From Zhouia spongiae (lineage in GTDB: Bacteria > Bacteroidota > Bacteroidia > Flavobacteriales > Flavobacteriaceae): a DNA stretch of 64,000 bases. Below, in pieces: positions 24,687-46,000 of this stretch. The notes under the pieces are model-generated. The model was not told where the DNA came from and did not search any database. It worked only from the letters and a program-made list of their open reading frames with translations. Each line of letters begins with the position of its first letter. Position 1 is the first letter of the stretch. Position numbers and translations under genes: made by a program. The stretch spans positions 1,910,804 to 1,974,803 of the forward strand of contig NZ_CP094326.1 of NCBI RefSeq assembly GCF_022760175.1, read 5' to 3'.

Positions 24687-25137
24687 CACACAACGGTTGG
24701 GCTATGAGTAGTTGCGTGGTTTGGCACTAAACTTTGCAACTACACACCAAACTGAAAATCCTTGCGGATTTTCAGAAGTAGGCGAGAACAAGCAATTACT
24801 TATAGCCATTGTGCCTGTTGCACAAGTTAGCAAAAAATTGACATAGGGTTGATATTTTCCTCTCACAAGACGCTTACCTTGTAGTTATGCAAGGCAAAAA
24901 TAATATCAGGAGAAGCTCCTCCATTATTTAAAAACCACACAAAAAGAGGAGTAGCAAGCATGCAAAGTATTTACTTTTCTTTAAAAGCTATCATACAATA
25001 CATTTTACGCCTTTTTAAGCCTTTCAATTTTAGTTTACAGCTAAACTATACCACAAAATAAAAGCCCATAAAAGGGCTTATTTGTATCTTGTTTTTATAT
25101 AATTAGTGGGTTGTGCAACGGCTACCATTGTTGGCAT
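24687..25137 (-). other. attC site split by MITE
   Basis: Core side CACACAACGGTTGGGCTATGAGTAG; stem partner GAACAAGCAATTACTTATAGCC ends at about 24808. The internal arm CCTTGCGGATTTTCAG is shared only with the site at 37.69 kb. The inverse core ATGCCAAC (25130-25137) is the exact complement of its cassette opening at 25773. Confidence 0.85.
24808..25128 (+). mobile_element. MITE-like copy, closest to the full elements
   Basis: The 5' part (left end to the start-codon region) and the 3' part (AACCACACAAAAAGAGGAGTAGCAAGC to the AAGCCCATAAAAGGGCTT hairpin and GGGTTGTGCAAC) match the 29.0 kb full IS copy more closely than the other MITEs do. It is therefore a recent internal deletion of a full element. 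Confidence 0.85.
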
Positions 25138-25144
25138 TAGTATT

Positions 25145-25747
25145 TTATTCCACATTGTCTTTTACAACTTTGGTTTTCGATAAAAAGTCGTGAATTCCGT
25201 TTTTTACAAATAGAAACGAAAGTCGATCAAATGGAATTAGTCGGCAAAAAGTCCGAGTGATTATATCTCCATCAGTTGGTTTTTCTCCGTTCATTTTCAC
25301 AACTTTTGTTTTGGTTACAAATTTCCCAACTGTTTTTTGGAATTTGATTTCCATTATCGCATAGTAAGCTATAAAAGACCCAAAGAATAGAATGTAAACG
25401 AATAGTGTTAAAATTCCTTGATTTTCAGCTGTTAAAGGGATGAAAAGTCCGATTATAAAACTAATGATAAATGCTAAAATTAACCATACAATAAAGTCAA
25501 TTAGAAAATTCACAAACCGAATTCCCAAACCGACAACATTCGAGTCCACTTTTTCTTTTTGTTCTTTTTCCGCTGTCGCTCTTTCTCGGATTTTTTCGAA
25601 TTCAGATGTGTCGATATTCCGCTTTTCAACTTCCGCATCTGCTGCTTCAATTGCAGTCGGATTGTATCTTTCTCTTTCGACTGTTACAATTTTTATTAAT
25701 TCTTCATCTGTCCTCTCGGACATTACTTTTGCAAATTCGTTTTCCAT
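25145..25747 (-). CDS. RDD-family membrane protein
   Basis: 200 aa. A cytosolic N-terminal region of about 70 residues rich in Glu/Arg (TDEELIKIVTVERERYNPTAIEAAD) precedes an RDD domain: GIRFVNFLIDFIVWLIL, two more hydrophobic helices, then KFQKTVGKFVTKTKVV and RTFCRLIPFDRLSFL. Function unknown; the family includes proposed transporters. Sole gene of a cassette with exact complementary ends. Confidence 0.85.
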   Translation of the reverse strand: MENEFAKVMSERTDEELIKIVTVERERYNPTAIEAADAEVEKRNIDTSEFEKIRERATAEKEQKEKVDSNVVGLGIRFVNFLIDFIVWLILAFIISFIIGLFIPLTAENQGILTLFVYILFFGSFIAYYAIMEIKFQKTVGKFVTKTKVVKMNGEKPTDGDIITRTFCRLIPFDRLSFLFVKNGIHDFLSKTKVVKDNVE

Positions 25748-25893
25748 TAGTTTGATGGTCAGTTTATATTAATGCCAACGGCTCGTATAACCGTCAGTTA
25801 CGGGATTAAAGTTAATGTTTTTCGGTTTGGTACTGACGTTGGCAATTCCGAGTGGATTCGGACGTAGTCGAATCCGCCGTAATTGCGGTTATA

Positions 25894-27620
25894 CATTGTG
25901 CCTGTTGCACAAGTTAGCAAAAAATTGACATAGGGTTGATATTATCTTTTGATAAGAGGCTTACCTTGTAGTTATGCAAGGAAAAAAGAAGTATCAGGAG
26001 AAGTTGTTCAATCAGTTTCAGTTAAGTGAGCGCGTACCTATAGACAATTTCTATCGGCGGTTAAAAGAGGTGTTGGATTTAGATTACTTATACCCACTTA
26101 CCAAACGATATTATGGTAGTAGCGGACAAAAGAGCATCGACCCGGTGGTGTTCTTTAAACTTTGTTTGGTAGGTTATTTAGAAAACATTATCAGTGATCG
26201 AAAGCTCATAACGCATTGCAGTATGCGATTGGATATTTTGTTCTTTTTGGATTATGATATCGATGAAGAACTTCCCTGGCATTCTACCATTAGCCGCACC
26301 CGTCAGTTATTTCCTGAGGCTGTATTTGAAGAGGTCTTTACCAAGGTGTTTGAACTATGTGTATCGGTCGGGATGTTCAGTGGCCATACTCAGGCTATCG
26401 ATAGCGCCCCTGTAAAAGCCAATGCTTCTATGGATAGTTTGGAACTGAAAGTTCCTGAAGCCGATTTAGAAACGCATCTTCGAGAAATTCGTCACATTAG
26501 TAAAGGTGATAAAGACAAACCACTACGTCAAGCCAAAGGGAATAAAGCAGACAAAGATCAGCAAACCTTATCGGCCAGTAAAAAGGAGCTACAGGGCATA
26601 AAGAGCAGGAACAGTAAATGGGCAAAAGATCAGGATCAGCGCCCGGGAGCAGGCAATAAAGGCTCGAGATATACCAGCAACAAAACCCATTACAGTCCTA
26701 CCGATCCCGATGCCCGTATCAGTGTAAAACCGGGCAAGGCCAGGAAACTCAATTACCTATCTCAATTAACCGTAGACACCTCCAATCATGTGATAACCGA
26801 TATTAAAGCTTATCATGCCGATGGCAAAGACAACCAACAACTGCCAGACATAGTGAAAAGGGTACAACGCCGATTGTGGAACTCAGGACTGCTATGGGAG
26901 AACTGTGTAGCCGATACAGGATATAGCAGTGGGGAGAACTATGCCTTTTTAGAAAAGAATCAGATCAAGAGTTTTATCCCTCCCCATGGTACTTACAAAG
27001 GAGGGCCGGCAGGATTTACATATATTGAGGCAGGCAACTATTGGTTATGCCCTCAGGGCAAGAAAGTTACTTTCCGCAAACAAAAATTAGAGAAAGGGAC
27101 TCTAAAAGATCAGTACTTTACCAAACGGAGTGATTGTAAAGGCTGCCCGATAAAACAACAATGTATTGGTAAAAGTTATGAGAAACGCATAAACATTACT
27201 GCTTATCGCAAAGAATACGAACGTAATATAGCAAGAGTGAATAGTCCGCAGGGACGGTATATGAAAGCCAAGCGGCAAAGCACGGTAGAACCGGTGTTTG
27301 GAACATTAACACAGTTTATGGGACTTAGAAAAGTGAATACCCTAGGCATTAAGCAGGCAAACAAATGTATGCAGCTCTCGGCCATAGCCTACAACTTGAA
27401 GAAGTACCTGAAATTCATTGAAAACCACACAAAAAGTGGAGCAGCAAGTATGCAAAGTATTTACTTTTCTTTAAAAGCTATCATACAATACATTTTACGC
27501 CTTTTTAAGCCTTTCAATTTTAGTTTACAGCTAAACTATACCACAAAATAAAAGCCCATAAAAGGGCTTATTTGTATCTTGTTTTTATATAATTAGTGGG
27601 TTGTGCAACATCTACCATCT
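25894..27620 (+). mobile_element. IS1182-like element, full copy 1
   Basis: About 1.73 kb. Imperfect inverted ends share GTTGCACAA. One ORF fills it, and a hairpin AAGCCC-ATAAAA-GGGCTT follows the stop, with T-rich flanks on both strands. I cannot define a target duplication with confidence. Confidence 0.85.
25974..27551 (+). CDS. IS1182-family-like DDE transposase, copy 1
   Basis: 525 aa. An N-terminal DUF772-type domain (YYGSSGQKSIDPVVFFKLCLVGYL, then LPWHSTISRTR) leads into a DDE catalytic domain with D143 (AIDSAPVKAN), D314 (VADTGYSSGE) and E439 (STVEPVFG). A long basic insert lies between the first two acids, and a Cys cluster (C359, C388, C391, C397) precedes the last. It is transcribed opposite to the cassette genes. 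This copy has the VPIDN/DYLYPL 5' variant, GMFSG and CPQGKK. Confidence 0.9.
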   Translation: MQGKKKYQEKLFNQFQLSERVPIDNFYRRLKEVLDLDYLYPLTKRYYGSSGQKSIDPVVFFKLCLVGYLENIISDRKLITHCSMRLDILFFLDYDIDEELPWHSTISRTRQLFPEAVFEEVFTKVFELCVSVGMFSGHTQAIDSAPVKANASMDSLELKVPEADLETHLREIRHISKGDKDKPLRQAKGNKADKDQQTLSASKKELQGIKSRNSKWAKDQDQRPGAGNKGSRYTSNKTHYSPTDPDARISVKPGKARKLNYLSQLTVDTSNHVITDIKAYHADGKDNQQLPDIVKRVQRRLWNSGLLWENCVADTGYSSGENYAFLEKNQIKSFIPPHGTYKGGPAGFTYIEAGNYWLCPQGKKVTFRKQKLEKGTLKDQYFTKRSDCKGCPIKQQCIGKSYEKRINITAYRKEYERNIARVNSPQGRYMKAKRQSTVEPVFGTLTQFMGLRKVNTLGIKQANKCMQLSAIAYNLKKYLKFIENHTKSGAASMQSIYFSLKAIIQYILRLFKPFNFSLQLNYTTK

Positions 27621-27633
27621 TTGTTAGGCAACG

Positions 27634-28320
27634 TTATTTTTTATTAATAAATTCATTCGATTGAGCAATCACAAGTGGTTTCAAAGCTCCGTGATATTCC
27701 ATTGTACACAAAAATCCAATAGCGTCTTCAATATTTTCTCCGTCATAAAACATATCATCCTCTCCTGGAATCATTGCCTTAAGTTTATATTTAAAGACAG
27801 TAGGATGTCCAATATGGCTCCAATCAGTTTCGAAGTCAATAAATTCTCGGAAATACCCATTTACTTTTTGTAGTTTCTCGTTTTCTTCGTCTCCTTCTGC
27901 AATTATTTTAATTTGATATTCATCTGATATTTGCTGCCCATATTTTGCATAAAATAACCCCTTGAAATTTTTAATGTGTAATTTTTCAATGTCGTTATAA
28001 CTGAAACTAACTTCAAAAGATTTTCCTTCATCAATACTGAAAACTCTTTCTTTCCAATTACTTCTTCTCATTATTGAACGTACAGCTTTAGCCGTCATTT
28101 CATTTTTCAAATCATCATTTTCATTTAAAACTCCAATAGCGTCTCTTATCTCTTGGTCAATTTTCGAATAAAGTCCAATGTTGCAATCATAACAAGCAGG
28201 AACTGTCAATAAATTAACTTTGTATTCTGGCGGATATGTACTAAATAAATTCTTGGCAGGAATATGTTCAACGTGGTTAGTTTCGTCTGTCAATTCAATT
28301 CCGCAATTGTAACAATTCAT
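27634..28320 (-). CDS. HNH-type nuclease-like protein
   Basis: 228 aa. The first 60 residues look like a zinc-bound HNH core: CYNCGIELTDETNHVEHIPAKN, then VPACYDCN, i.e. two CxxC knuckles around the His-rich segment, with HVEHIP in place of the usual D/E-H-x-x-P. The C-terminal 160 residues are unfamiliar. It may be a DNA endonuclease or a non-catalytic HNH-fold protein. It is the sole gene of its cassette. A defence role is possible but unsupported. Confidence 0.65.
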   Translation of the reverse strand: MNCYNCGIELTDETNHVEHIPAKNLFSTYPPEYKVNLLTVPACYDCNIGLYSKIDQEIRDAIGVLNENDDLKNEMTAKAVRSIMRRSNWKERVFSIDEGKSFEVSFSYNDIEKLHIKNFKGLFYAKYGQQISDEYQIKIIAEGDEENEKLQKVNGYFREFIDFETDWSHIGHPTVFKYKLKAMIPGEDDMFYDGENIEDAIGFLCTMEYHGALKPLVIAQSNEFINKK

Positions 28321-28339
28321 ACTGTTTGGTTTTAATGTT

Positions 28340-28472
28340 GCCTAACGGTTTAGTATAACGTTTCGTTGCGGAGAAATCATTATTGATTAGTCCGCTGATT
28401 GTAAATATAGAAAATATGCGTGATTTTTCCACGGGAAAAATCGCGGCAATGAACGGTATGCATTGTTAGCAT
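28340..28472 (-). other. Intact attC site (133 bp)
   Basis: On the minus strand the inverse core ATGCTAAC (28465-28472) pairs with the opening GTTAGCAT at 28775. GCATACCGTTCATTGC pairs with GCAACGAAACGTTATAC, with a second inner pairing around the GATTTTTCC / GGAGAAATC segment. The site ends CCGTTAGGC, the opening of the HNH cassette. No IS is present. The same subfamily occurs at 47.85 and 41.49 kb. Confidence 0.9.
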
Positions 28473-28781
28473 TTGTAGCGACCCATCCGAGTAAGTACGA
28501 GCAGTAACCGTTCCGAGTCAAATCCAATCTAAATTTTGTCGGTTAGGAGCGAAATTATTATGTAGTCAAAAGGATAATTTTAAAATCCGTTTAATTTTGG
28601 CAGATCAGTTCAATTATAGATCCGTTTTTAGTCGTTGTCAAGTCCGCAAACTTGCTCAAAAATCCGTTGCTACATTTTTTAGTCACATATGAGTGATAAA
28701 TCCGCGTTTTGTCAAAACTAAATGTTTAATCTATGGATGAATGATCCAATGGAATTCAAGTCCGGAGCTATACATGCTAAC
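28465..28781. other. Gene-less integron cassette 2
   Basis: A unit of about 315 bp bounded by matched core sites but with no reading frame over about 25 codons. Its first about 60 bp (CTCCGGACTTGA.TTCCATTGGA and TTAAACATT.AG.TTTGAC) and last about 35 bp match the other gene-less cassette at 47.98-48.31 kb. The middle differs. It may carry a promoter or RNA, or be a decayed gene. Confidence 0.75.
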
Positions 28782-28893
28782 GTATTAGGCTATGAGTGGT
28801 TGCGTTTTAGGTTCGTGATTTATCCGCTTGTGGTAAAGATTAAAAGTAAGAAAAATTCTTCTTGTTAACCATCACAAGCAATTACTTATAGCC

Positions 28894-30614
28894 ATTGTGC
28901 CTGTTGCACAAGTTAGCAAAAAATTGACATAGGGTTGATATTTTCCTCTCACAAGACGCTTACCTTGTAGTTATGCAAGGCAAAAAACAATATCAGGAAA
29001 AGTTATTCAACCAGTTTCAGTTAAGTGAACGCGTACCCAAAGACAATTTCTACCGCCGGTTAAAAGAGGTGTTGGACTTAGAATATTTGTATTCGTTTAC
29101 CAAAGGATATTACGGTAGTAGCGGACAAAAGAGCATCGACCCGGTGGTGTTCTTTAAACTTTGTTTGGTAGGTTATTTAGAAAACATTATCAGTGATCGA
29201 AAGCTCATAACGCATTGCAGTATGCGATTGGATATTTTGTTCTTTTTGGATTATGATATCGATGAAGAACTGCCATGGCATTCTACCATTAGCCGCACCC
29301 GTCAGTTATTTCCTGAGTCAGTGTTTGAAGAGGTCTTTACCAAGGTGTTTGAACTATGTGTATCGATCGGGATGGTCAGTGGCCATACTCAGGCTATCGA
29401 TAGCGCCCCTGTAAAAGCCAATGCTTCTATGGATAGTTTGGAACTGAAAGTTCCTGAAGCCGATTTAGAAACGCATCTTCGAGAAATTCGTCACATTAGT
29501 AAAGGTGATAAAGACAAACCACTACGTCAAGCCAAAGGGAATAAAGCAGACAAAGATCAGCAAACCTTATCGGCCAGTAAAAAGGAGCTACAGGGCATAA
29601 AGAGCAGGAACAGTAAATGGGCAAAAGATCAGGATCAGCGTCCGGGAGCAGGCAATAAAGGCTCGAGATATACCAGCAACAAAACCCATTACAGTCCTAC
29701 CGATCCCGATGCCCGTATCAGTGTCAAACCGGGCAAGGCCAGGAAACTCAATTACCTATCTCAATTAACAGTAGATACCTCCAATCATGTGATAACCGAT
29801 ATCAAAGCTTACCATGCCGATGGCAAAGACAACCAACAACTGCCCGACATAGTGAAAAGGGTACAACGCCGATTGTGGAACTCAGGACTGCTATGGGAGA
29901 ACTGTGTAGCCGATACAGGATATAGCAGTGGGGAGAACTATGCCTTTTTAGAAAAGAATCAGATCAAGAGTTTTATCCCTCCCCATGGTACTTACAAAGG
30001 AGGGCCGGGAGGATTTACATATATTGAGGCAGGCAGCTATTGGTTATGCCCTCAGGGCAAGAAAGTTACTTTCCGCAAACAAAAATTAGAGAAAGGGACT
30101 CTAAAAGATCAGTACTTTACCAAACGGAGTGATTGTAAAGGCTGCCCGATAAAACAACAATGTATTGGTAAAAGTTATGAGAAACGCATAAACATTACTG
30201 CTTATCGCAAAGAATACGAACGTAATATAGTAAGAGTGAATAGTCCGCAGGGACGGTATATGAAAGCCAAGCGGCAAAGTACCGTAGAACCGGTGTTTGG
30301 AACATTAACACAGTTTATGGGACTTAGAAAAGTGAATACCCTAGGCATTAAACAGGCTAATAAATGTATGCAGCTCTCGGCCATTGCCTACATGAAGAAG
30401 TACCTGAAATTCATTGAAAACCACACAAAAAGAGGAGTAGCAAGCATGCAAAGTATTTACTTTTCTTTAAAAGTTATCATACAACACATTTTACGCCTTT
30501 TTAAGCCTTTCAATTTTAGTTTACAGCTAAACTATACCACAAAATAAAAGCCCATAAAAGGGCTTATTTGTATCTTGTTTTTAGAAAATTAAGGGCTTGT
30601 GCAACGGCTACCAT
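28894..30614 (+). mobile_element. IS1182-like element, full copy 2
   Basis: Same ends and organisation as copy 1. The 5' flank (TTTTCCTCTCACAAGACGC) is the variant shared with the MITE at 24.8 kb, not with the other full copies. Confidence 0.85.
28973..30547 (+). CDS. IS1182-family-like transposase, copy 2
   Basis: 524 aa: a three-base in-frame loss near the C-terminus turns AYNLKKYL into AYMKKYL. The catalytic D, D and E are kept. Other differences are KEYLYSFTKGYYG-type changes near residues 38-47 and SIGMVSG. The middle block (ADLETHLREIRHISKGD) is the type found in copy 1. Confidence 0.9.
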   Translation: MQGKKQYQEKLFNQFQLSERVPKDNFYRRLKEVLDLEYLYSFTKGYYGSSGQKSIDPVVFFKLCLVGYLENIISDRKLITHCSMRLDILFFLDYDIDEELPWHSTISRTRQLFPESVFEEVFTKVFELCVSIGMVSGHTQAIDSAPVKANASMDSLELKVPEADLETHLREIRHISKGDKDKPLRQAKGNKADKDQQTLSASKKELQGIKSRNSKWAKDQDQRPGAGNKGSRYTSNKTHYSPTDPDARISVKPGKARKLNYLSQLTVDTSNHVITDIKAYHADGKDNQQLPDIVKRVQRRLWNSGLLWENCVADTGYSSGENYAFLEKNQIKSFIPPHGTYKGGPGGFTYIEAGSYWLCPQGKKVTFRKQKLEKGTLKDQYFTKRSDCKGCPIKQQCIGKSYEKRINITAYRKEYERNIVRVNSPQGRYMKAKRQSTVEPVFGTLTQFMGLRKVNTLGIKQANKCMQLSAIAYMKKYLKFIENHTKRGVASMQSIYFSLKVIIQHILRLFKPFNFSLQLNYTTK

Positions 30615-30629
30615 TGTTACAAAACGTTT

Positions 30630-31247
30630 TTAATATTTAGGGCTTACCTTTTTCATTGTCAAAATCACATATTCAGCAACTTTAGGATTATCTTGAAAAA
30701 TATGTAATGAGTTTGATAAATTCAGATTGTTGGTAAAAGCTTCTCCTGTTCCGCCAAAAGAGCCTCTGATATAATATATTTCACCGTCTTTTGCATTGAT
30801 TTCAATAATGTCCTTTTTAGAGTTTTTTTGATTGTATTTATGTACTTCTCCAGCTTTTACTTTGTGTAGATAATAACTATGAGTTTTGATGTTAATAAAA
30901 GGCATTCCATTATATTCCACTTTACAAGCTAATGCAGAACCTGTATAAACATAAGGTCTATAAAAATAAACGTGGGCATAACCAGACTCTGGTTTTTCAA
31001 TTTCAATGTTTAATGGGTTTTGAATTATTGATGCGTCAGCAAAATGTACATCTGCAAATTTGAATATATTTTTTTTCTTTTTTCCTTTTTCACCTTTTAT
31101 AATGTAGCTTACTTTTTTATTTTTTAATTCGAGAATTTTACAATAAATGGTATCATTTTGAACGGTAACTAAATAATCCGAATCATTTGATTGAGAATAA
31201 GTCCAAGCGGAAATTAAAATCAGAGTAAGAGTAATTATTTTTTTCAT
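30630..31247 (-). CDS. Secreted DUF2846-like protein
   Basis: About 205 aa from the ATG at 31247 (the frame upstream runs into the attC). A signal peptide ends at WTYSQ. After a short beta segment comes the DUF2846-type block AHVYFYRPYVYTGSALACKVEYNG and later SYYLHKVKAGEV and IYYIRGSFG. The family is of unknown function and is usually periplasmic or lipoprotein. Sole gene of its cassette. Confidence 0.7.
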   Translation of the reverse strand: MKKIITLTLILISAWTYSQSNDSDYLVTVQNDTIYCKILELKNKKVSYIIKGEKGKKKKNIFKFADVHFADASIIQNPLNIEIEKPESGYAHVYFYRPYVYTGSALACKVEYNGMPFINIKTHSYYLHKVKAGEVHKYNQKNSKKDIIEINAKDGEIYYIRGSFGGTGEAFTNNLNLSNSLHIFQDNPKVAEYVILTMKKVSPKY

Positions 31248-31277
31248 TCTTCTATAGTTAAATATTTGGTTTAAATG

Positions 31278-31410: not shown

Positions 31411-31435
31411 GTTCATATTTATTTTTATGTTTACA

Positions 31436-34350: not shown

Positions 34351-34480
34351 GCACAACGTCCCGGCTAAGAAACGTAGGACTTTCAGAGCGATTATCTGTG
34401 CATCAAACCGAAGTTTGCTAAGTGAACGAACCTTTCAGAAAGCCTTGTCTGCCCTATGTTTTCTTAGCCATTGTTGGGCT
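34351..34480 (-). other. Intact attC site (130 bp)
   Basis: The clearest uninterrupted site. Minus strand: inverse core AAGCCCAAC, then AATGGCTAAGAAAACATAGGG pairing with CCTACGTTTCTTAGCCGG, then CGTTGTGCG. AGCCCAAC is the exact complement of the opening of the DUF2071 cassette at 35214. It shows what an IS-free site looks like: the position just after AACAATGG is where the IS lies in the others. Confidence 0.9.
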
Positions 34481-35201: not shown

Positions 35202-35333
35202 TTTTTCACATTAAGCCCAACGTATTAGGCTATGGGTATTTGCGTTTTAGTTTCGTGATTTATCCGCTTGTGGTAAAGATTAAAAGTAAGAAAAATTCTT
35301 CTTGTTAACCCTCACAAGCAATTATTTATAGCC

Positions 35334-37057
35334 ATTGTGCCTGTTGCACAAGTTAGCAAAAAATTGACATAGGGTTGATATTATCTTTTGATAAGAAGCT
35401 TACCTTGTAGTTATGCAAGGAAAAAAGAAGTATCAGGAGAAGTTATTCAACCAGTTTCAGTTAAGTGAACGCGTACCCAAAGACAATTTCTACCGCCGGT
35501 TAAAAGAGGTGTTGGACTTAGAATATTTGTATGCGCTTACCAAACGATATTACGGTAGTAGCGGACAAAAGAGCATCGATCCGGTGGTGTTCTTTAAACT
35601 TTGTTTGGTAGGTTATTTAGAAAACATTATCAGTGATCGAAAGCTCATAACGCATTGCAGTATGCGATTGGATATTTTGTTCTTTTTGGATTATGATATC
35701 GATGAAGAACTGCCCTGGCATTCTACCATTAGCCGCACCCGTCAGTTATTTCCTGAGTCAGTGTTTGAAGAGGTCTTTACCAAGGTGTTTGAACTATGTG
35801 TATCGGTCGGGATGGTCAGTGGCCATACTCAGGCTATCGATAGCGCCCCTGTAAAAGCCAATGCCTCGATGGACAGTCTGGAGCTCAAAGTACCTGAGGA
35901 AGATTTAGAGTCCTACCTCCGTAAGGTGCGCCATATCAGCAAACGGGACAAGGATAAACCATTACGTCAAGCTAAAGAGAATAAAGCGGGAAAGGATCAG
36001 CAAACCTTATCGGCCAGTAAAAAGGAGCTACAGGCCATAAAGAGCAGGAACAGTAAATGGGCAAAAGATCAGGATCAGCGTCCGGGAGCAGGCAATAAAG
36101 GCTCGAGATATACCAGCAATAAGACCCATTACAGTCCTACCGATCCCGATGCCCGTATCAGTGTCAAACCGGGCAAGGCCAGGAAACTCAATTACCTATC
36201 TCAATTAACCGTAGACACCTCCAATCATGTGATAACCGATATCAAAGCCTACCATGCCGATGGCAAAGACAACCAACAACTGCCCGACATAGTGAAAAGG
36301 GTACAACGACGCTTGTGGAACTCAGGACTGCTATGGGAGAACTGTGTAGCCGATACAGGATATAGCAGTGGGGAGAACTATGCCTTTTTAGAAAAGAATC
36401 AGATCAAGAGTTTTATCCCTCCCCATGGTACTTACAAAGGAGGGCCGGCAGGATTTACATATATTGAGGCAGGCAACTATTGGTTATGCCCTCAGGTCAA
36501 GAAAGTTACTTTCCGCAAACAAAAATTAGAGAAAGGGACTCTAAAAGATCAGTACTTTACCAAACGGAGTGATTGTAAAGGCTGCCCGATAAAACAACAA
36601 TGTATTGGTAAAAGTTATGAGAAACGCATAAACATTACTGCTTATCGCAAAGAATACGAACGTAATATAGCAAGAGTGAATAGTCCGCAGGGACGGTATA
36701 TGAAAGCCAAGCGGCAAAGCACGGTAGAACCGGTGTTTGGAACATTAACACAGTTTATGGGACTTAGAAAAGTGAATACCCTAGGCATTAAACAGGCAAA
36801 CAAATGTATGCAGCTCTCGGCCATAGCCTACAACTTGAAGAAGTACCTGAAATTCATTGAAAACCACACAAAAAGTGGAGTAGCAAGCATGCAAAGTATT
36901 TACTTTTCTTTAAAAGCTATCATACAATACATTTTACGCCTTTTTAAGCCTTTCAATTTTAGTTTACAGCTAAACTATACCACAAAATAAAAGCCCATAA
37001 AAGGGCTTATTTGTATCTTGTTTTTATATAATTAGTGGGTTGTGCAACATCTACCAT
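35334..37057 (+). mobile_element. IS1182-like element, full copy 3
   Basis: Same ends and hairpin as copy 1, with the TATCTTTTGATAAGAAGC 5' variant. Apparently identical to copy 4. Confidence 0.85.
35413..36990 (+). CDS. IS1182-family-like transposase, copy 3
   Basis: 525 aa, intact D, D, E. VPKDN and EYLYALTKR near the N-terminus; middle block EEDLESYLRKVRHISKRD, CPQVKK. The protein is identical to copy 4. Confidence 0.9.
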   Translation: MQGKKKYQEKLFNQFQLSERVPKDNFYRRLKEVLDLEYLYALTKRYYGSSGQKSIDPVVFFKLCLVGYLENIISDRKLITHCSMRLDILFFLDYDIDEELPWHSTISRTRQLFPESVFEEVFTKVFELCVSVGMVSGHTQAIDSAPVKANASMDSLELKVPEEDLESYLRKVRHISKRDKDKPLRQAKENKAGKDQQTLSASKKELQAIKSRNSKWAKDQDQRPGAGNKGSRYTSNKTHYSPTDPDARISVKPGKARKLNYLSQLTVDTSNHVITDIKAYHADGKDNQQLPDIVKRVQRRLWNSGLLWENCVADTGYSSGENYAFLEKNQIKSFIPPHGTYKGGPAGFTYIEAGNYWLCPQVKKVTFRKQKLEKGTLKDQYFTKRSDCKGCPIKQQCIGKSYEKRINITAYRKEYERNIARVNSPQGRYMKAKRQSTVEPVFGTLTQFMGLRKVNTLGIKQANKCMQLSAIAYNLKKYLKFIENHTKSGVASMQSIYFSLKAIIQYILRLFKPFNFSLQLNYTTK

Positions 37058-37676: not shown

Positions 37677-37813
37677 TGGTTGCTCAAAATGCACTACAAC
37701 GGCTCGGCTATGAGTAGTTGCGTGGTTTAGCACTTAACTTTGCAAGTACACACCAAACTGAAAATCCGAGAGGATTTTCAGAAGTAGGCGAGCACAAGCA
37801 ATTACTTATAGCT

Positions 37814-39537
37814 ATTGTGCCTGTTGCACAAGTTAGCAAAAAATTGACATAGGGTTGATATTATCTTTTGATAAGAAGCTTACCTTGTAGTTATGCAAGG
37901 AAAAAAGAAGTATCAGGAGAAGTTATTCAACCAGTTTCAGTTAAGTGAACGCGTACCCAAAGACAATTTCTACCGCCGGTTAAAAGAGGTGTTGGACTTA
38001 GAATATTTGTATGCGCTTACCAAACGATATTACGGTAGTAGCGGACAAAAGAGCATCGATCCGGTGGTGTTCTTTAAACTTTGTTTGGTAGGTTATTTAG
38101 AAAACATTATCAGTGATCGAAAGCTCATAACGCATTGCAGTATGCGATTGGATATTTTGTTCTTTTTGGATTATGATATCGATGAAGAACTGCCCTGGCA
38201 TTCTACCATTAGCCGCACCCGTCAGTTATTTCCTGAGTCAGTGTTTGAAGAGGTCTTTACCAAGGTGTTTGAACTATGTGTATCGGTCGGGATGGTCAGT
38301 GGCCATACTCAGGCTATCGATAGCGCCCCTGTAAAAGCCAATGCCTCGATGGACAGTCTGGAGCTCAAAGTACCTGAGGAAGATTTAGAGTCCTACCTCC
38401 GTAAGGTGCGCCATATCAGCAAACGGGACAAGGATAAACCATTACGTCAAGCTAAAGAGAATAAAGCGGGAAAGGATCAGCAAACCTTATCGGCCAGTAA
38501 AAAGGAGCTACAGGCCATAAAGAGCAGGAACAGTAAATGGGCAAAAGATCAGGATCAGCGTCCGGGAGCAGGCAATAAAGGCTCGAGATATACCAGCAAT
38601 AAGACCCATTACAGTCCTACCGATCCCGATGCCCGTATCAGTGTCAAACCGGGCAAGGCCAGGAAACTCAATTACCTATCTCAATTAACCGTAGACACCT
38701 CCAATCATGTGATAACCGATATCAAAGCCTACCATGCCGATGGCAAAGACAACCAACAACTGCCCGACATAGTGAAAAGGGTACAACGACGCTTGTGGAA
38801 CTCAGGACTGCTATGGGAGAACTGTGTAGCCGATACAGGATATAGCAGTGGGGAGAACTATGCCTTTTTAGAAAAGAATCAGATCAAGAGTTTTATCCCT
38901 CCCCATGGTACTTACAAAGGAGGGCCGGCAGGATTTACATATATTGAGGCAGGCAACTATTGGTTATGCCCTCAGGTCAAGAAAGTTACTTTCCGCAAAC
39001 AAAAATTAGAGAAAGGGACTCTAAAAGATCAGTACTTTACCAAACGGAGTGATTGTAAAGGCTGCCCGATAAAACAACAATGTATTGGTAAAAGTTATGA
39101 GAAACGCATAAACATTACTGCTTATCGCAAAGAATACGAACGTAATATAGCAAGAGTGAATAGTCCGCAGGGACGGTATATGAAAGCCAAGCGGCAAAGC
39201 ACGGTAGAACCGGTGTTTGGAACATTAACACAGTTTATGGGACTTAGAAAAGTGAATACCCTAGGCATTAAACAGGCAAACAAATGTATGCAGCTCTCGG
39301 CCATAGCCTACAACTTGAAGAAGTACCTGAAATTCATTGAAAACCACACAAAAAGTGGAGTAGCAAGCATGCAAAGTATTTACTTTTCTTTAAAAGCTAT
39401 CATACAATACATTTTACGCCTTTTTAAGCCTTTCAATTTTAGTTTACAGCTAAACTATACCACAAAATAAAAGCCCATAAAAGGGCTTATTTGTATCTTG
39501 TTTTTATATAATTAGTGGGTTGTGCAACATCTACCAA
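37814..39537 (+). mobile_element. IS1182-like element, full copy 4
   Basis: Ends and internal sequence as copy 3; I see no difference from it over the coding region. It lies only about 0.75 kb downstream of copy 3, in the same orientation. Confidence 0.85.
37893..39470 (+). CDS. IS1182-family-like transposase, copy 4
   Basis: 525 aa, protein identical to copy 3. The pair indicates recent duplication or gene conversion between two adjacent attC sites. Confidence 0.9.
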   Translation: MQGKKKYQEKLFNQFQLSERVPKDNFYRRLKEVLDLEYLYALTKRYYGSSGQKSIDPVVFFKLCLVGYLENIISDRKLITHCSMRLDILFFLDYDIDEELPWHSTISRTRQLFPESVFEEVFTKVFELCVSVGMVSGHTQAIDSAPVKANASMDSLELKVPEEDLESYLRKVRHISKRDKDKPLRQAKENKAGKDQQTLSASKKELQAIKSRNSKWAKDQDQRPGAGNKGSRYTSNKTHYSPTDPDARISVKPGKARKLNYLSQLTVDTSNHVITDIKAYHADGKDNQQLPDIVKRVQRRLWNSGLLWENCVADTGYSSGENYAFLEKNQIKSFIPPHGTYKGGPAGFTYIEAGNYWLCPQVKKVTFRKQKLEKGTLKDQYFTKRSDCKGCPIKQQCIGKSYEKRINITAYRKEYERNIARVNSPQGRYMKAKRQSTVEPVFGTLTQFMGLRKVNTLGIKQANKCMQLSAIAYNLKKYLKFIENHTKSGVASMQSIYFSLKAIIQYILRLFKPFNFSLQLNYTTK

Positions 39538-39543
39538 TGTTAG

Positions 39544-41463
39544 CTACCGTTTTTTCTTCGGTTTTTTTCCTCCTTTTTGGAAATATTCGTCTATTTCTCG
39601 ACTAGTCTTATTTAAAGAATAATTGTCCACTTTCTTTAGAAGTTTATCGTCAACCAGTTTATCATTTTCGAGATAATATCCTAAAAGGTCAATTTCATCG
39701 TTCACTCGGATTTTTGGATTCGTGAATAATGGAATTCTTTGTTCTAAATAATCTATAAAATCATCTTCATTCTCTAAAATTTCCGAAAATATCATTAAAT
39801 CAAATAGACTACAATTCCAAGCAAAGTCAACTTCTGGCTTTACAATTCCCAGTTTTTTTAATTCGTGTAGGTTTGATATGAATCCCGACAAGTGTTCAAG
39901 TGTAATTGTTATTCTAAATGTTTTCTTCTTGTTGTCAACTGTAATTGTTAATCCTTGATTATCATAGAATGAATTATCGTCATTTTCTTTGATATATTTA
40001 TATGCACGGTGACTTTGGTAGGCACCATAACCTACAGTTTCAGATAATTGACCTGTTAAACTTTTTAATGCACCTCTTCTAGAAGGTGCGGACAAACCTC
40101 CTGCTTTTATCTCAACTATATAATTGGCTTTATCCGAAATAATAAGTAGGTCTAATTCTGTTTCAATTGGATTTTTATTTTCATCCAAAATCCCTGGTTT
40201 ATACTTCAAGTTTAGATATGACTTTGAACCCTTTATGAAATTATCAAGTAATTCTGCTGTTTTGTTTTCTAGATAGTTATCTCTTGATTGCGAGTATTTA
40301 TTACCTAAATATTTCTCTTTGTAGTACTTTTTGTTTGCATTTTCAATCAAAAATTCTCCAATTTCAAAAAGGTTTCTTGTTAGAATATTAAATGCAAAAA
40401 GATAGTATTCATTATCATATTTGATGATTGGTTTTCGCGTCATTAAGCTCTCATTTAAAGGTAATCCTTGAAATTCTGGATTAAGAAAATCTTTATTATC
40501 TCCAAATTTTTGGCTAATAACTTCAACTACTTTTTTATGCAATTCTTTCCTAAATCTTATTTTGTGCAATTCTTGAAATTGTTCTGGGTCATTTACTAAA
40601 TATCCATTTGGTTTGTTATCTTTTGATACAAAGTCAGGATTGTCAGCTAAAAAATCAATCATTGGTTTTTGGTCATCAGCTCTAAACATTGTAATGCCTT
40701 TTGCTTTTTGCCATTTTTCAAATCGCTCAAATGATTTAGGGTGAGGCATACCATTTGGCAGTATTAATCTACAATACCAAGAATCCTCTAATTGAATAAA
40801 TGTTTCTAAAATATCTTTTGAATCAAATCCGTAATTATCGATATAAAACTGGTCGTGCCCAGAAAACATTTCTTTAAACACATCATATATGTGATTCATA
40901 TAACCGTCTCCTCTCATATGAAGAGCTTCCAAAACCGTTGAAAATCTTAAGTGACTTTCTTGTTCAGAGTAAGCTCCAGTTAATGCTTCTGTCATTATGT
41001 AAGCATTGTAAGACATACGGATGTTAGTAAGTAAATCCTTTAACTCTTCAAAAATTTCAACGGATGGTGACTCTGTTGGATTGTTTTCTAAAGCTGTCGC
41101 AAAACTTGAGGCATATTCTAATGAAACTTCTGCCATTCCATCATCTTCGGGATTGTTATGATTTAGAAAATGATTGTAGGATAGAAAGCCCAATAATTTG
41201 AAATTATCATATGTTTTAAAAATTTCTATAACTCTGTTAATCGAATTTTCTATAAACTCCAGAGTTTTGGGCCTATTTGAAATTATTTGTTGCACATACT
41301 CTTCGTGCTGTTTTTTTGTCCGCTTATTTTTTACTGTAAGGTTCTTTCCTTCAAGTTTTAGTTCAATCCCATTAACTAGCTCCCTTTTAATTTTAGAAGC
41401 TTTACCGTAGACTCTATTTTTCTTTTTATTTTTTTTCTTCTTTCTTCCTCTACTTTTTGGCAT
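39544..41463 (-). CDS. Large protein with PD-(D/E)xK-like motif (639 aa)
   Basis: It begins with a very basic segment (residues 3-18 almost all Lys/Arg), followed by about 370 residues of mixed helical sequence with no family I know. Near residues 420-445 there is an E-(x)-E-L-D-L-L-I-I..YIVEIKAG pattern, which fits the D-(x)n-(D/E)xK core of restriction-type nucleases; EIKAG is the lysine end. The C-terminus is again basic (KKPKKKR). It is the longest cassette gene. A nuclease or defence role is plausible but rests on one motif. Confidence 0.6.
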   Translation of the reverse strand: MPKSRGRKKKKNKKKNRVYGKASKIKRELVNGIELKLEGKNLTVKNKRTKKQHEEYVQQIISNRPKTLEFIENSINRVIEIFKTYDNFKLLGFLSYNHFLNHNNPEDDGMAEVSLEYASSFATALENNPTESPSVEIFEELKDLLTNIRMSYNAYIMTEALTGAYSEQESHLRFSTVLEALHMRGDGYMNHIYDVFKEMFSGHDQFYIDNYGFDSKDILETFIQLEDSWYCRLILPNGMPHPKSFERFEKWQKAKGITMFRADDQKPMIDFLADNPDFVSKDNKPNGYLVNDPEQFQELHKIRFRKELHKKVVEVISQKFGDNKDFLNPEFQGLPLNESLMTRKPIIKYDNEYYLFAFNILTRNLFEIGEFLIENANKKYYKEKYLGNKYSQSRDNYLENKTAELLDNFIKGSKSYLNLKYKPGILDENKNPIETELDLLIISDKANYIVEIKAGGLSAPSRRGALKSLTGQLSETVGYGAYQSHRAYKYIKENDDNSFYDNQGLTITVDNKKKTFRITITLEHLSGFISNLHELKKLGIVKPEVDFAWNCSLFDLMIFSEILENEDDFIDYLEQRIPLFTNPKIRVNDEIDLLGYYLENDKLVDDKLLKKVDNYSLNKTSREIDEYFQKGGKKPKKKR

Positions 41464-41609
41464 AGTTCGATTTTTGGGTTAAATGGTAGCTAACGGTTTA
41501 GTATAACGTTTCGTTGCGGAGAAATCGTTTTTGATTTTTCCGCTGATTGTAAATATAGAAAATATGCGTGATTTTTCCACAGGAAAAACCGTAGCAATGA
41601 AGGTTATAC

Positions 41610-43333
41610 ATTGTGCCTGTTGCACAAGTTAGCAAAAAATTGACATAGGGTTGATATTATCTTTTGATAAGAGGCTTACCTTGTAGTTATGCAAGGAAAA
41701 AAGAAGTATCAGGAGAAGTTGTTCAATCAGTTTCAGTTAAGTGAACGCGTACCTATAGACAATTTCTATCGGCGGTTAAAAGAGGTGTTGGATTTAGATT
41801 ACTTATACCCACTTACCAAACGATATTATGGTAGTAGCGGACAAAAGAGTATCGATCCGGTGGTATTCTTTAAGTTATGTCTGGTTGGGTATTTAGAAAA
41901 TATCACCAGCGACCGTAAACTGATAACCCATTGCAGTATGCGATTGGACATTTTGTTCTTTTTGGGTTATGATATCGATGAAGAACTTCCCTGGCATTCT
42001 ACCATTAGCCGCACCCGTCAGTTATTTCCTGAGTCAGTGTTTGAAGAGGTCTTTACCAAGGTGTTTGAACTATGTGTATCGGTCGGGATGGTCAGTGGCC
42101 ATACTCAGGCTATCGATAGCGCCCCTGTAAAAGCCAATGCCTCGATGGACAGTCTGGAGCTCAAAGTACCTGAGGAAGATTTAGAGTCCTACCTCCGTAA
42201 GGTGCGCCATATCAGCAAACGGGACAAGGATAAACCATTACGTCAAGCTAAAGAGAATAAAGCGGGAAAGGATCAGCAAACCTTATCGGCCAGTAAAAAG
42301 GAGCTACAGGCCATAAAGAGCAGGAACAGTAAATGGGCAAAAGATCAGGATCAGCGTCCGGGAGCAGGCAATAAAGGCTCGAGATATACCAGCAATAAGA
42401 CCCATTACAGTCCTACCGATCCCGATGCCCGTATCAGTGTCAAACCGGGCAAGGCCAGGAAACTCAATTACCTATCTCAATTAACCGTAGACACCTCCAA
42501 TCATGTGATAACCGATATCAAAGCCTACCATGCCGATGGCAAAGACAACCAACAACTGCCCGACATAGTGAAAAGGGTACAACGACGCTTGTGGAACTCA
42601 GGACTGCTATGGGAGAACTGTGTAGCCGATACAGGATATAGCAGTGGGGAGAACTATGCCTTTTTAGAAAAGAATCAGATCAAGAGTTTTATCCCTCCCC
42701 ATGGTACTTACAAAGGAGGGCCGGCAGGATTTACATATATTGAGGCAGGCAACTATTGGTTATGCCCTCAGGTCAAGAAAGTTACTTTCCGCAAACAAAA
42801 ATTAGAGAAAGGGACTCTAAAAGATCAGTACTTTACCAAACGGAGTGATTGTAAAGGCTGCCCGATAAAACAACAATGTATTGGTAAAAGTTATGAGAAA
42901 CGCATAAACATTACTGCTTATCGCAAAGAATACGAACGTAATATAGCAAGAGTGAATAGTCCGCAGGGACGGTATATGAAAGCCAAGCGGCAAAGCACGG
43001 TAGAACCGGTGTTTGGAACATTAACACAGTTTATGGGACTTAGAAAAGTGAATACCCTAGGCATTAAACAGGCAAACAAATGTATGCAGCTCTCGGCCAT
43101 AGCCTACAACTTGAAGAAGTACCTGAAATTCATTGAAAACCACACAAAAAGTGGAGTAGCAAGCATGCAAAGTATTTACTTTTCTTTAAAAGCTATCATA
43201 CAATACATTTTACGCCTTTTTAAGCCTTTCAATTTTAGTTTACAGCTAAACTATACCACAAAATAAAAGCCCATAAAAGGGCTTATTTGTATCTTGTTTT
43301 TATATAATTAGTGGGTTGTGCAACATCTACTAT
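41610..43333 (+). mobile_element. IS1182-like element, full copy 5
   Basis: Same ends as copy 1; inserted in a different attC subfamily from copies 2, 3, 4 and 6 but at the equivalent position. Confidence 0.85.
41689..43266 (+). CDS. IS1182-family-like transposase, copy 5
   Basis: 525 aa, catalytic residues intact. It is mosaic: the first about 65 residues are like copy 1 (VPIDN, DYLYPL), the segment at residues 70-95 is unique to copies 5 and 6 (NITSDRK, FFLGYD), and the rest equals copies 3 and 4. Confidence 0.9.
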   Translation: MQGKKKYQEKLFNQFQLSERVPIDNFYRRLKEVLDLDYLYPLTKRYYGSSGQKSIDPVVFFKLCLVGYLENITSDRKLITHCSMRLDILFFLGYDIDEELPWHSTISRTRQLFPESVFEEVFTKVFELCVSVGMVSGHTQAIDSAPVKANASMDSLELKVPEEDLESYLRKVRHISKRDKDKPLRQAKENKAGKDQQTLSASKKELQAIKSRNSKWAKDQDQRPGAGNKGSRYTSNKTHYSPTDPDARISVKPGKARKLNYLSQLTVDTSNHVITDIKAYHADGKDNQQLPDIVKRVQRRLWNSGLLWENCVADTGYSSGENYAFLEKNQIKSFIPPHGTYKGGPAGFTYIEAGNYWLCPQVKKVTFRKQKLEKGTLKDQYFTKRSDCKGCPIKQQCIGKSYEKRINITAYRKEYERNIARVNSPQGRYMKAKRQSTVEPVFGTLTQFMGLRKVNTLGIKQANKCMQLSAIAYNLKKYLKFIENHTKSGVASMQSIYFSLKAIIQYILRLFKPFNFSLQLNYTTK

Positions 43334-43348
43334 TGTTGTAAACAGTTT

Positions 43349-43789
43349 TTATTCTTTTTTAAATTTATAGTCAAGCCAATAATTTGTAGATATTCGCATA
43401 TCATTTTCTTTATCAAGTATTTTTTTTAAAGTCAGTTTGTCCCAATAAACACAACCAGAGCAAACTGAAACAATCCCATTAGATTTATATATTTCCGAAA
43501 TTTTTTCTTTCAGTTCTTTTGTCAGAGTGAGTTTGTTTAATTCAGTTAGTTTTTCACAAACAACTACAGCTAGATATTTTTCAGCATTATTCTCCGAATC
43601 AAGAAGTTTAATAATGGAATTGTATTTTTCTTTGTCAATTAGTTTGGAAACTTTCTGAACTGGCTTTGATTGACTTCCGTCCTCGTAGCAACCAAATCCA
43701 ACCATTTCATTAACATCTACATTTGATTGAGCAATTCCGTTAATTGGAATACTAATTATAAAAGTTAAGGTAAATATTATTTGCTTCAT
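43349..43789 (-). CDS. Secreted hypothetical protein (146 aa)
   Basis: Signal peptide ending near NGIAQS. The mature part has three cysteines (GFGCYEDG and SVCSGCVYW) in a mostly helical sequence (KEKISEIYKSN). No recognised family. It is second in a two-gene cassette, 30 bp after the 106 aa gene. Confidence 0.65.
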   Translation of the reverse strand: MKQIIFTLTFIISIPINGIAQSNVDVNEMVGFGCYEDGSQSKPVQKVSKLIDKEKYNSIIKLLDSENNAEKYLAVVVCEKLTELNKLTLTKELKEKISEIYKSNGIVSVCSGCVYWDKLTLKKILDKENDMRISTNYWLDYKFKKE

Positions 43790-43818
43790 TTATTAACTAT
43801 GTCTAACATTAAAACTAG

Positions 43819-44139
43819 TTACTTTGCCGTTTTTGTCAAATGCCCTGTGTCAATTCCGTGTTTAGCCATTCCTAAATAGTAACCAAATTCGGATTCGTTT
43901 TTAGTTTCTGGAATTCCCAACAATTCAATTATTTCAGTCTTGGATTTTCCTTTCAGTTCGTGATTATTCCTCAAACTGTTCATCATATCCCAACGCAATG
44001 ACCATTCAGATTCTGATTCCGTCCAGTTTTTCCACTTTTCAGAGTCAAATTTTTCGTGAGTGATATTTCCTTTCAGTGCAAAACCGATTAGAATTAGCAT
44101 TCCGAAAATCAGAAATCCGTATTTTAATGCTTTTTTCAA
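43819..44139 (-). CDS. Small membrane-anchored hypothetical (106 aa)
   Basis: One N-terminal membrane segment (YGFLIFGMLILIGFAL) and a soluble tail with WTESESEWSLRWDMMNSLRNNHELKGKSKTEIIELLGIP. The tail resembles the anchor-type SmpA/OmlA pattern in which a K-x-E-I-(x)-x-L-L-G-x-P loop is followed by YxLG, here as YYLG. First gene of a two-gene cassette. Confidence 0.65.
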   Translation of the reverse strand: MKKALKYGFLIFGMLILIGFALKGNITHEKFDSEKWKNWTESESEWSLRWDMMNSLRNNHELKGKSKTEIIELLGIPETKNESEFGYYLGMAKHGIDTGHLTKTAK

Positions 44140-44275
44140 TTTTTGTCTTAAATTGTTTACAACGCATTAGGCTATGAGTGGTTGCGTTTTAGGTTCGTGA
44201 TTTATCCGCTTGTGATAAAGATTAAAAGTAGGAATAAATCCTCATGTTAACCACCACAAGCAATTACTTATAGCC

Positions 44276-46000
44276 ATTGTGCCTGTTGCACAAGTTAGCA
44301 AAAAATTGACATAGGGTTGATATTATCTTTTGATAAGAGGCTTACCTTGTAGTTATGCAAGGAAAAAAGAAGTATCAGGAGAAGTTGTTCAATCAGTTTC
44401 AGTTAAGTGAACGCGTACCTATAGACAATTTCTATCGGCGGTTAAAAGAGGTGTTGGATTTAGATTACTTATACCCACTTACCAAACGATATTATGGTAG
44501 TAGCGGACAAAAGAGTATCGATCCGGTGGTATTCTTTAAGTTATGTCTGGTTGGGTATTTAGAAAATATCACCAGCGACCGTAAACTGATAACCCATTGC
44601 AGTATGCGATTGGACATTTTGTTCTTTTTGGGTTATGATATCGATGAAGAACTTCCCTGGCATTCTACCATTAGCCGCACCCGTCAGTTATTTCCTGAGT
44701 CAGTGTTTGAAGAGGTCTTTACCAAGGTGTTTGAACTATGTGTATCGGTCGGGATGGTCAGTGGCCATACTCAGGCTATCGATAGCGCCCCTGTAAAAGC
44801 CAATGCCTCGATGGACAGTCTGGAGCTCAAAGTACCTGAGGAAGATTTAGAGTCCTACCTCCGTAAGGTGCGCCATATCAGCAAACGGGACAAGGATAAA
44901 CCATTACGTCAAGCTAAAGAGAATAAAGCGGGAAAGGATCAGCAAACCTTATCGGCCAGTAAAAAGGAGCTACAGGCCATAAAGAGCAGGAACAGTAAAT
45001 GGGCAAAAGATCAGGATCAGCGTCCGGGAGCAGGCAATAAAGGCTCGAGATATACCAGCAATAAGACCCATTACAGTCCTACCGATCCCGATGCCCGTAT
45101 CAGTGTCAAACCGGGCAAGGCCAGGAAACTCAATTACCTATCTCAATTAACCGTAGACACCTCCAATCATGTGATAACCGATATCAAAGCCTACCATGCC
45201 GATGGCAAAGACAACCAACAACTGCCCGACATAGTGAAAAGGGTACAACGACGCTTGTGGAACTCAGGACTGCTATGGGAGAACTGTGTAGCCGATACAG
45301 GATATAGCAGTGGGGAGAACTATGCCTTTTTAGAAAAGAATCAGATCAAGAGTTTTATCCCTCCCCATGGTACTTACAAAGGAGGGCCGGCAGGATTTAC
45401 ATATATTGAGGCAGGCAACTATTGGTTATGCCCTCAGGTCAAGAAAGTTACTTTCCGCAAACAAAAATTAGAGAAAGGGACTCTAAAAGATCAGTACTTT
45501 ACCAAACGGAGTGATTGTAAAGGCTGCCCGATAAAACAACAATGTATTGGTAAAAGTTATGAGAAACGCATAAACATTACTGCTTATCGCAAAGAATACG
45601 AACGTAATATAGCAAGAGTGAATAGTCCGCAGGGACGGTATATGAAAGCCAAGCGGCAAAGCACGGTAGAACCGGTGTTTGGAACATTAACACAGTTTAT
45701 GGGACTTAGAAAAGTGAATACCCTAGGCATTAAACAGGCAAACAAATGTATGCAGCTCTCGGCCATAGCCTACAACTTGAAGAAGTACCTGAAATTCATT
45801 GAAAACCACACAAAAAGTGGAGTAGCAAGCATGCAAAGTATTTACTTTTCTTTAAAAGCTATCATACAATACATTTTACGCCTTTTTAAGCCTTTCAATT
45901 TTAGTTTACAGCTAAACTATACCACAAAATAAAAGCCCATAAAAGGGCTTATTTGTATCTTGTTTTTATATAATTAGTGGGTTGTGCAACATCTACCATC
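44276..46000 (+). mobile_element. IS1182-like element, full copy 6
   Basis: Same ends and hairpin as the others. It is followed directly by the IS110 element, whose left end replaces the last bases of the usual CTACCATCTTTGTT junction. Confidence 0.85.
44355..45932 (+). CDS. IS1182-family-like transposase, copy 6
   Basis: 525 aa, protein identical to copy 5, including the mosaic N-terminal segment. Catalytic residues intact. Confidence 0.9.
   Translation: MQGKKKYQEKLFNQFQLSERVPIDNFYRRLKEVLDLDYLYPLTKRYYGSSGQKSIDPVVFFKLCLVGYLENITSDRKLITHCSMRLDILFFLGYDIDEELPWHSTISRTRQLFPESVFEEVFTKVFELCVSVGMVSGHTQAIDSAPVKANASMDSLELKVPEEDLESYLRKVRHISKRDKDKPLRQAKENKAGKDQQTLSASKKELQAIKSRNSKWAKDQDQRPGAGNKGSRYTSNKTHYSPTDPDARISVKPGKARKLNYLSQLTVDTSNHVITDIKAYHADGKDNQQLPDIVKRVQRRLWNSGLLWENCVADTGYSSGENYAFLEKNQIKSFIPPHGTYKGGPAGFTYIEAGNYWLCPQVKKVTFRKQKLEKGTLKDQYFTKRSDCKGCPIKQQCIGKSYEKRINITAYRKEYERNIARVNSPQGRYMKAKRQSTVEPVFGTLTQFMGLRKVNTLGIKQANKCMQLSAIAYNLKKYLKFIENHTKSGVASMQSIYFSLKAIIQYILRLFKPFNFSLQLNYTTK

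Follow-up and report, generated by a model that had tools for sequence, protein, structure and literature searches.

IS1182-family insertion sequences at one position and in one orientation in attC sites of Flavobacteriaceae

We analysed a 64,000 nt stretch of the Zhouia spongiae genome (the window; NZ_CP094326.1, positions 1,910,804-1,974,803, assembly GCF_022760175.1), in which full-length copies of an insertion sequence (IS) of the IS1182 family interrupt the attC sites of an integron cassette array. In this genome and in related bacteria nearly all copies are found at one position of the attC and in one orientation, they share their ends, about half of them carry identical target duplications and they go back to independent insertions. 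From these sequence comparisons we consider it probable, at roughly 0.85, that this is a DDE element whose transposase directs insertion to attC, at the junction of L'' and R'' and antisense to the cassettes, with duplication of 4 bp.

The element and its attC sites in Zhouia spongiae

The window contains six full copies of about 1715-1718 bp, which are 93-100% identical and all lie on the plus strand. These are copy 1 (25898-27615, transposase gene 25974-27551), copy 2 (28897-30611, transposase gene 28973-30547), copy 3 (35337-37054, transposase gene 35413-36990), copy 4 (37817-39534), copy 5 (41613-43330) and copy 6 (44279-45996). Each has a single open reading frame (ORF) of 524-525 amino acids on the plus strand, and both this single long ORF and the terminal inverted repeats are traits of the IS1182 family. 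The transposase of copy 3 passes the NCBIfam IS1182 model NF033551 with 341.5 bits (cut-off 270) and contains the domains DDE_Tnp_1_6 (Pfam: PF13751), DUF772 (Pfam: PF05598) and DDE_Tnp_1 (Pfam: PF01609). The residues D143, D314 and E439, which may form the DDE catalytic triad, are unvarying in 30 aligned transposases. A sequence search of the PDB with the protein found no relative.

Three further full copies, starting at 1,335,732, 1,357,927 and 1,360,452, are located in a second array at 1.336-1.362 Mb, which gives nine in the genome. Of the partial copies outside both arrays, the one in L028 (6053-6181) adjoins an attC found by our model, that in L027 is next to sequence which resembles an attC by eye only, and those in L029 and L030 are fragments in which no element end is preserved.

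The covariance model for attC (R1) was built from 22 aligned sites with the element removed, three of them from the window (copies 2, 4 and 5). Several of these sites share the loop sequence, so the model rewards sequence as well. It finds 16 attCs in the window, 11 of which adjoin a full or shortened element and five of which are uninterrupted (starting at 12071, 28340, 31280, 34351 and 47850). The attCs have R'' and R' cores on either side of an imperfect hairpin, are repeated between genes and point in one direction (16 of 16 on the minus strand), as in an integron cassette array. All six full copies adjoin a model attC on its inverse-core side and are antisense to the cassettes, in agreement with a preliminary description that had placed them at one attC point with the transposase opposite to the cassettes. 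The interrupted attCs, all on the minus strand, are at 25773-25903 (copy 1), 28775-28902 (copy 2), 35215-35342 (copy 3), 37694-37822 (copy 4), 41488-41618 (copy 5) and 44157-44284 (copy 6). The uninterrupted attC at 34351-34479 (minus strand; AACAATGGCTAAG...CTTAGCC...CGTT) is our reference for an empty site. The insertion point lies between the L'' stem, with its outermost pair and a short spacer, and the GTT of R''. Run over the whole genome, the model gave at least 19 places at E<=1, and 17 of these belong to the two arrays; this is a lower bound, as 150 of 1726 candidates were scored and weaker window matches were missed. An exact-stem attC finder yielded few sites, and a single Rfam match (SNORD36, E 0.82) was taken as chance.

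The left end of the element is GTGCCTGTTGCACAAG. Most relatives have CTTGTGCAACGGTTAC as the right end, whereas eight of the nine own-genome copies have GGTTGTGCAACATCTAC; the likely limits are GTGCCTGTTGCACAAG...CTTGTGCAACGGTTAC. The ends form 16-bp inverted repeats (GTGCCTGTTGCACAAG against the reverse complement GTAACCGTTGCACAAG), and the duplication consists of the 4 bp immediately 5' of the R'' GTT. A 6-bp duplication, CATTGT, was also considered; the two readings differ by a GT common to element and target. The 4-bp reading is preferred because the gapless alignment of the 16-bp repeats needs an element that starts with GT and ends with AC. Copies 2 and 3 have the duplication CATT/CATT, copy 4 has the mismatched flanks TATT/CAAT and copy 5 is flanked by CATT/TATT. 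By eye, three additional bases separate the right end of copy 1 from an R'' of normal appearance, and copy 6 is followed by an IS110-family element in place of R'', with R''-like sequence resuming beyond it.

Relatives in other genomes and independent insertion

We searched a collection with one genome per species with the transposase of copy 3 and took the best 79 distinct loci of 144 relatives, mostly from Flavobacteriaceae. Together with the nine own copies these are 88 rows, of which 80 (9 own, 71 foreign) are evaluable, since seven have no left end and one has a flank of 3 bp. Thus the own copies and the relatives were collected and their ends and a 4-bp duplication defined, as the preliminary description had proposed. 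A model attC adjoins 59 of the 80 evaluable copies. Eight of these belong to the nine own copies and 51 to the 71 foreign ones, for which about 0.3 would be expected by chance. Five further copies have a stem score of at least 9 (the 99% quantile over 800 control positions is 9.3, and scores below 9 are weak). Several evident attCs had a low stem score, so that we also used the covariance model and reading by eye. Sixteen of the 80 copies have neither a model attC nor a passing stem score; by eye, 12 of these are in an attC, whose far side is cut in four cases (L073, L108, L128, L130) and which is uncertain in two (L119, L144). The remaining four are outside attC (L076, L080, L088, L137). Many insertions in unrelated sites had been named in the preliminary description as an outcome that would speak against attC targeting; with 4 of 80, and 12 more assigned to attC by eye only, such insertions are rare. 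Among 299 sampled Flavobacteriaceae genomes, 32 have a match at E<=1e-40. In a plasmid collection, the matches listed (50 of 2687 records) are 21-35% identical, with the exception of one Arenibacter record.

All 133 attC matches at E<=0.01, from 77 of the 79 foreign loci, are on the strand opposite to the transposase (L116 and L138 are left out of this count, and three matches are doubled, L074 and L081 overlapping). In 73 of the 75 rows in which the right end is present, an ORF lies close to it, and in 67 of these 73 the nearest such ORF is antisense, with its stop codon at a median distance of 19 bp from the IS. The element is accordingly on the R'' side and runs antisense to the cassette. 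Six rows deviate, namely the three own copies with an IS110 element next to them, the off-target copies L076 and L088, and L100. Occupied R'' sites have A at position -7 in 73 of 74 and T at -1 in 74 of 74 cases. At the 35 R' mirror sites, in which GTT is present by construction, A at -7 is found eight times and T at -1 once. Occupied attCs differ most from 62 unoccupied attCs at positions -3 and -4 (p 0.002 and 0.004, uncorrected for 20 positions) and are alike at the remaining tested positions.

Both 4-bp flanks are identical in 32 of the 68 rows with both ends, that is in 2 of 9 own and 30 of 58-59 foreign copies. The 30 include all four off-target copies; of the 54 foreign copies located in attC, 26 have an exact duplication. 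If the common CATT is not counted, 11 of 34 of these copies have one, whereas 20,000 shuffles gave 2.8 on average and 9 at most. GTT follows the right-hand copy of the duplication in 61 of the 68 rows.

A rival account is passive spread, in which the integron would have multiplied a single IS-bearing attC and carried it around together with its cassettes. In favour of it are the mismatched duplications in about half of the copies, the IS110 right flank that three own-genome copies have in common and the attC type shared by some window pairs (88-95% identity). However, relatives are found in many genera, and near-identical elements are present in unrelated attCs, beside unrelated genes and with exact duplications of their own. 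In two Formosa loci (L078, L120) the element is 99.9% identical, the duplications are CATT/CATT and CGGT/CGGT, and neither the attC sides nor the neighbouring genes have a BLAST match to each other. In Mesonia aquimarina (L074, L081) the element is 99.8% identical and the duplications are CATT/CATT and CGTT/CGTT. Copies 3 and 4 of the window are 100% identical over 1718 bp and lie in different attCs with different adjoining genes. These cases exclude passive copying, which the preliminary description had raised as an objection, as a general account, and we regard it as extremely improbable. Several near-identical pairs have attC sides without a BLAST match at E<=1e-5, so more than one type of attC is used; an earlier claim of at least three attC subfamilies is borne out to that extent. 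An uninterrupted attC in Cellulophaga baltica (L131) is 84.5% identical to that of L074, and in it CATT-GTT runs through the insertion point.

The nine own copies, read by eye over 92 informative columns, are mosaics of each other, which readily explains the mismatched duplications in this genome. Those in foreign copies would likewise result from exchange between copies.

It is also conceivable that insertion is near-random and only copies in attC persist, as no gene is hurt there. An attC does sit between genes, and four off-target copies exist, but the single base position and single orientation of nearly all copies speak against it. We think it very unlikely, and directed insertion into attC is the reading we follow below.

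Sequence and structure in target recognition

The transposase of the Flavobacteriaceae clade may read about 29 bp across L''/R'' as double-stranded sequence, with no need for folded DNA. The targets of this clade share 21.6 bits over 29 bp, and no position in 64 kb of own background reaches the lowest of five own occupied sites (15.0). In 35 attCs the profile, which was made from R'' sites, has a median of 27.0 at R'' and of -15.5 at the R' mirror (maximum 2.6). Three further first-clade loci, L164, L168 and L171, score 9.4, 23.8 and 23.9. Against recognition by sequence speak the four off-target insertions of the same clade, which score between -8.9 and 5.4, two of the 53 sites behind the profile, which score below 10, and seven sites of a second, more distant clade, at -3.4 to 14.8. 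A short consensus of eight fixed bases and a purine, rejected as the source of specificity, occurs 152 times in the genome and 154 times in a reversed control, and 6 of 100 listed places coincide with model attCs.

Alternatively, the extruded attC hairpin or cruciform may be needed, with cutting beside its central spacer. This is suggested by sister elements, described below, whose readable targets are palindrome centres (L055, L056, L166, L172), by the hairpin targets of the IS1182-family elements IS1272 and TnSha1 (passages of PMC5678879 and PMC4923244) and by the off-target copy L076, which duplicates the 4-nt centre of a 7-bp inverted repeat. However, both strands have to be cut, 4 bp apart, the sequence of the attC alone could suffice, and the off-target site L080 has no inverted repeat by eye. 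Predicted unpairing is modest as well: averaged over 35 sites, the probability that a base of the transposase strand is unpaired amounts to 0.40-0.57 at -3 to -1, compared to 0.14-0.20 at -8 to -4, and climbs again to 0.76 at +7, where the folded stretch ends. The left hairpin exceeds its control in only five of 11 second-clade sites. We rate recognition by sequence and recognition by structure about equal, each at somewhat less than an even chance.

With more distant transposases as queries, 8 of 395 genomes sampled from the phylum and 18 of 395 from the class had a match. The second clade (L150, L151, L158-L163, L169) comes from other families, and L151 is 42-43% identical to the own copies. 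GTT follows the right end in all 11 readable sites (L150, L151, L158-L163, L169, L176, L181). In a hairpin test without AAC anchor, the left hairpin is above the control in five of the 11 sites with enough flank (L151, L158, L162, L169, L173); L150 is borderline, with 8% of the controls as high, and five others are not above the control. L161 has a left flank of 4 bp only. The AAC-anchored stem score passes two of 11 sites (L151, L173). Six sites (L150, L159, L160, L163, L176, L181) had at first been read as attC by eye; their hairpins are not above the control. We regard the second clade as attC users, less firmly than the first. The preliminary description had held that the position in the attC is shared rather than the primary sequence. 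For the Flavobacteriaceae clade this is not established, since 21.6 bits over 29 bp could in principle suffice for recognition by sequence; the low profile scores of the second clade speak for it, yet with a hairpin in only 5 of 11 sites.

A third group of transposases (L055, L056, L166, L145, L146, L154, L157, and outside it L172 and L178) has the ends GTGGCTGTTGCA, and its readable targets are palindrome centres. In L166 a duplicated TAGC lies between 14-bp arms with one bulged base; the target is AAAC-GGCC-GTTT in L056, AAAAC-CAAG-GTTTT in L055 and CATAAG-CTNG-CTTATG in L172. The tree labels of L145, L146, L154, L157 and L178 follow the clade, their targets being unreadable (unclear in L178). 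L178 also has a long hairpin at 2919-3004 with IS1182-like element ends flanking each arm. The tree, calculated from 17 chosen rows of a first tree and 21 distant rows (L152 and L173 left out), supports the Flavobacteriaceae group, the second group and the palindrome group with 100/99 each; labels of the second group were set by eye before the hairpin test. The order of the three groups has a support of 82/46, so that one origin or two would both be compatible with it.

A common core may connect these targets. A at -7 is present in nearly all attC sites and in all four off-target sites, and GTT at +1 to +3 in three of the four (GAT in L137); two of them read AAC-N4-GTT and L137 reads AAC-N4-GAT. 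This pattern fits a transposase dimer on a relaxed palindrome. The transposase would read a core A-N2-[N4]-GTT, a relaxed form of the palindrome AAC-N4-GTT. The relaxed core by itself is far too common, with 773 occurrences in the window. The 4 bp at the core would include the central spacer of the folded attC, and the R' side may be avoided because it mostly has no A at -7 and no T at -1 and has a longer spacer. Targeting of attC seems to be a specialised form of the targeting of palindromes by sister IS1182 elements. Within an array, copies would then recombine with each other, which would scramble their duplications and could reassort attCs and genes.

Several points weigh against directed insertion into attC as we read it. 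Four copies are outside attC, 12 were assigned to it by eye, and the survey covered the best 79 loci among 144 relatives. Some of the counted rows also served to build the model, so the count of 59 depends on it, unlike the stem score and the gene orientation. Of the 54 attC-located foreign copies 28 have an inexact duplication, as have seven of the nine own ones, and repair by exchange between copies is seen in the own genome only, from mosaic patterns. With regard to folding, unpairing is even higher at +5 to +7 than at -3 to -1, where it reaches only 0.40-0.57, and the 29-bp profile alone separates the site from 64 kb of background.

Shortened relatives, neighbouring elements and known systems

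Seven shortened relatives of the element, which resemble miniature inverted-repeat transposable elements (MITEs), are present in the window, all on the plus strand and with parts of both element ends kept. Five of them have the same internal joint of IS positions 128/1529: 9088-9400, 10693-11020 (attC 10574-10703, weak, E 0.18), 13170-13481 (attC 13051-13180), 18278-18572 (attC 18159-18286) and 22935-23240. The other two are a shorter one at 20555-20728 (attC 20441-20568) and an internally deleted one at 24803-25149 (attC 24688-24816). The joint common to five relatives points to a MITE family. It is shared although the parts of these elements, between 9088 and 23240, are 75-86% identical to the IS, so this is probably an old non-autonomous family. 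All such relatives had been claimed to lie in attC; a model attC at E<=1 adjoins five of the seven, the weak one included. Those at 9088 and 22935 have no model attC at this threshold, their flanks being degenerate or truncated by eye, in the second case with a short truncated hairpin that the model misses.

Next to the second array, at 1.3676 Mb (L036, 2635-3765), we found a recombinase of 376 amino acids. It is below the cut-off of TIGR02249 (209 bits, cut-off 265) and passes NF040815, the model for site-specific tyrosine recombinase/integron integrase (XerA), with 232 bits (cut-off 220); it is possibly an unusual integron integrase. At the array end in the window (48375-48571) there is only a recombinase fragment with stops. 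Partial or full relatives of the recombinase occur in L090, L091, L110, L120, L130 and L161. The IS110-family element behind copy 6 extends over 45997-47201 on the plus strand (transposase gene 46212-47177; outer limit approximate, by eye). It has three genome copies with 100% identical protein, each directly behind an IS1182 copy (in the window; L183, L184, L185), and a longer non-coding stretch upstream of its transposase gene, as passages of PMC11187229 describe for IS110. A relative in L106 (around 5320) lies at an attC end without an IS1182 element. The window further contains a 119-bp direct repeat with 99% identity (6896-7014 and 7958-8076), which flanks an ORF at 7032-7970.

Structured targets are not new for the IS1182 family. 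According to passages of PMC5678879 and PMC4923244, IS1272 and TnSha1 insert in inverted repeats or hairpins, insertion of IS1272 replaces or removes the hairpin and leaves no duplication, and a review by Siguier, cited by both papers, states that some IS1182 members target palindromes. The element studied here is like IS1272 and TnSha1 in its family and in having a structured target. Unlike with IS1272, the attC is retained, 4 bp are duplicated (exactly in 30 of 58 foreign copies), and position and orientation are fixed; the passages on IS1272 and TnSha1 contain no mention of attC. ISKpn4 and ISPst6 of the IS1111-attC group target attC at one end (passages of PMC11187229, which cites Tetu & Holmes 2008 and Post & Hall 2009 on this group). 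Our element likewise targets one attC end, but its transposase belongs to IS1182 and not to the RNA-guided DEDD transposases of IS1111/IS110, so it is no member of IS1111-attC. Group IIC-attC introns insert in the attC bottom strand, opposite to the cassettes and mostly at TTGT/T (passages of PMC7923331), at most 2 nt from the insertion point of our element; they are retroelements, whereas the element is a DDE transposon. PMC8618304 and PMC9137128 were consulted as well. Among the open-access papers listed, with ISfinder and most subscription journals outside the search, we found no report of IS1182 elements in attC. The earlier statement that no attC-targeting DDE element of this family is known holds within that scope, but hairpin targets are known for the family. 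The novelty lies in an insertion that is almost confined to attC and has a fixed position and orientation there.

A wider interpretation is that an IS1182 lineage turned palindrome targeting into the recognition of folded attC. It would then be a parasite of Bacteroidota integrons, and its insertion point would nearly coincide with the bond used by group IIC-attC introns and an IS110-type element. By recombining with each other, its copies would give integrons a second route, independent of an integrase, for the exchange of attCs between genes. We hold this to be rather doubtful, and the six second-clade sites with hairpins not above the control lower its odds.

With directed insertion into attC, this element family of Flavobacteriaceae and related bacteria would be a specialised parasite of gene-capture arrays. 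Insertion directed to attC was, going by the passages cited above, previously known for RNA-guided DEDD elements and group II introns. The DDE element and its palindrome-using sisters would form a natural series for the step from palindrome to attC. The element may serve as a marker for cassette arrays in Bacteroidota and is a possible source of cassette rearrangement without an integrase.

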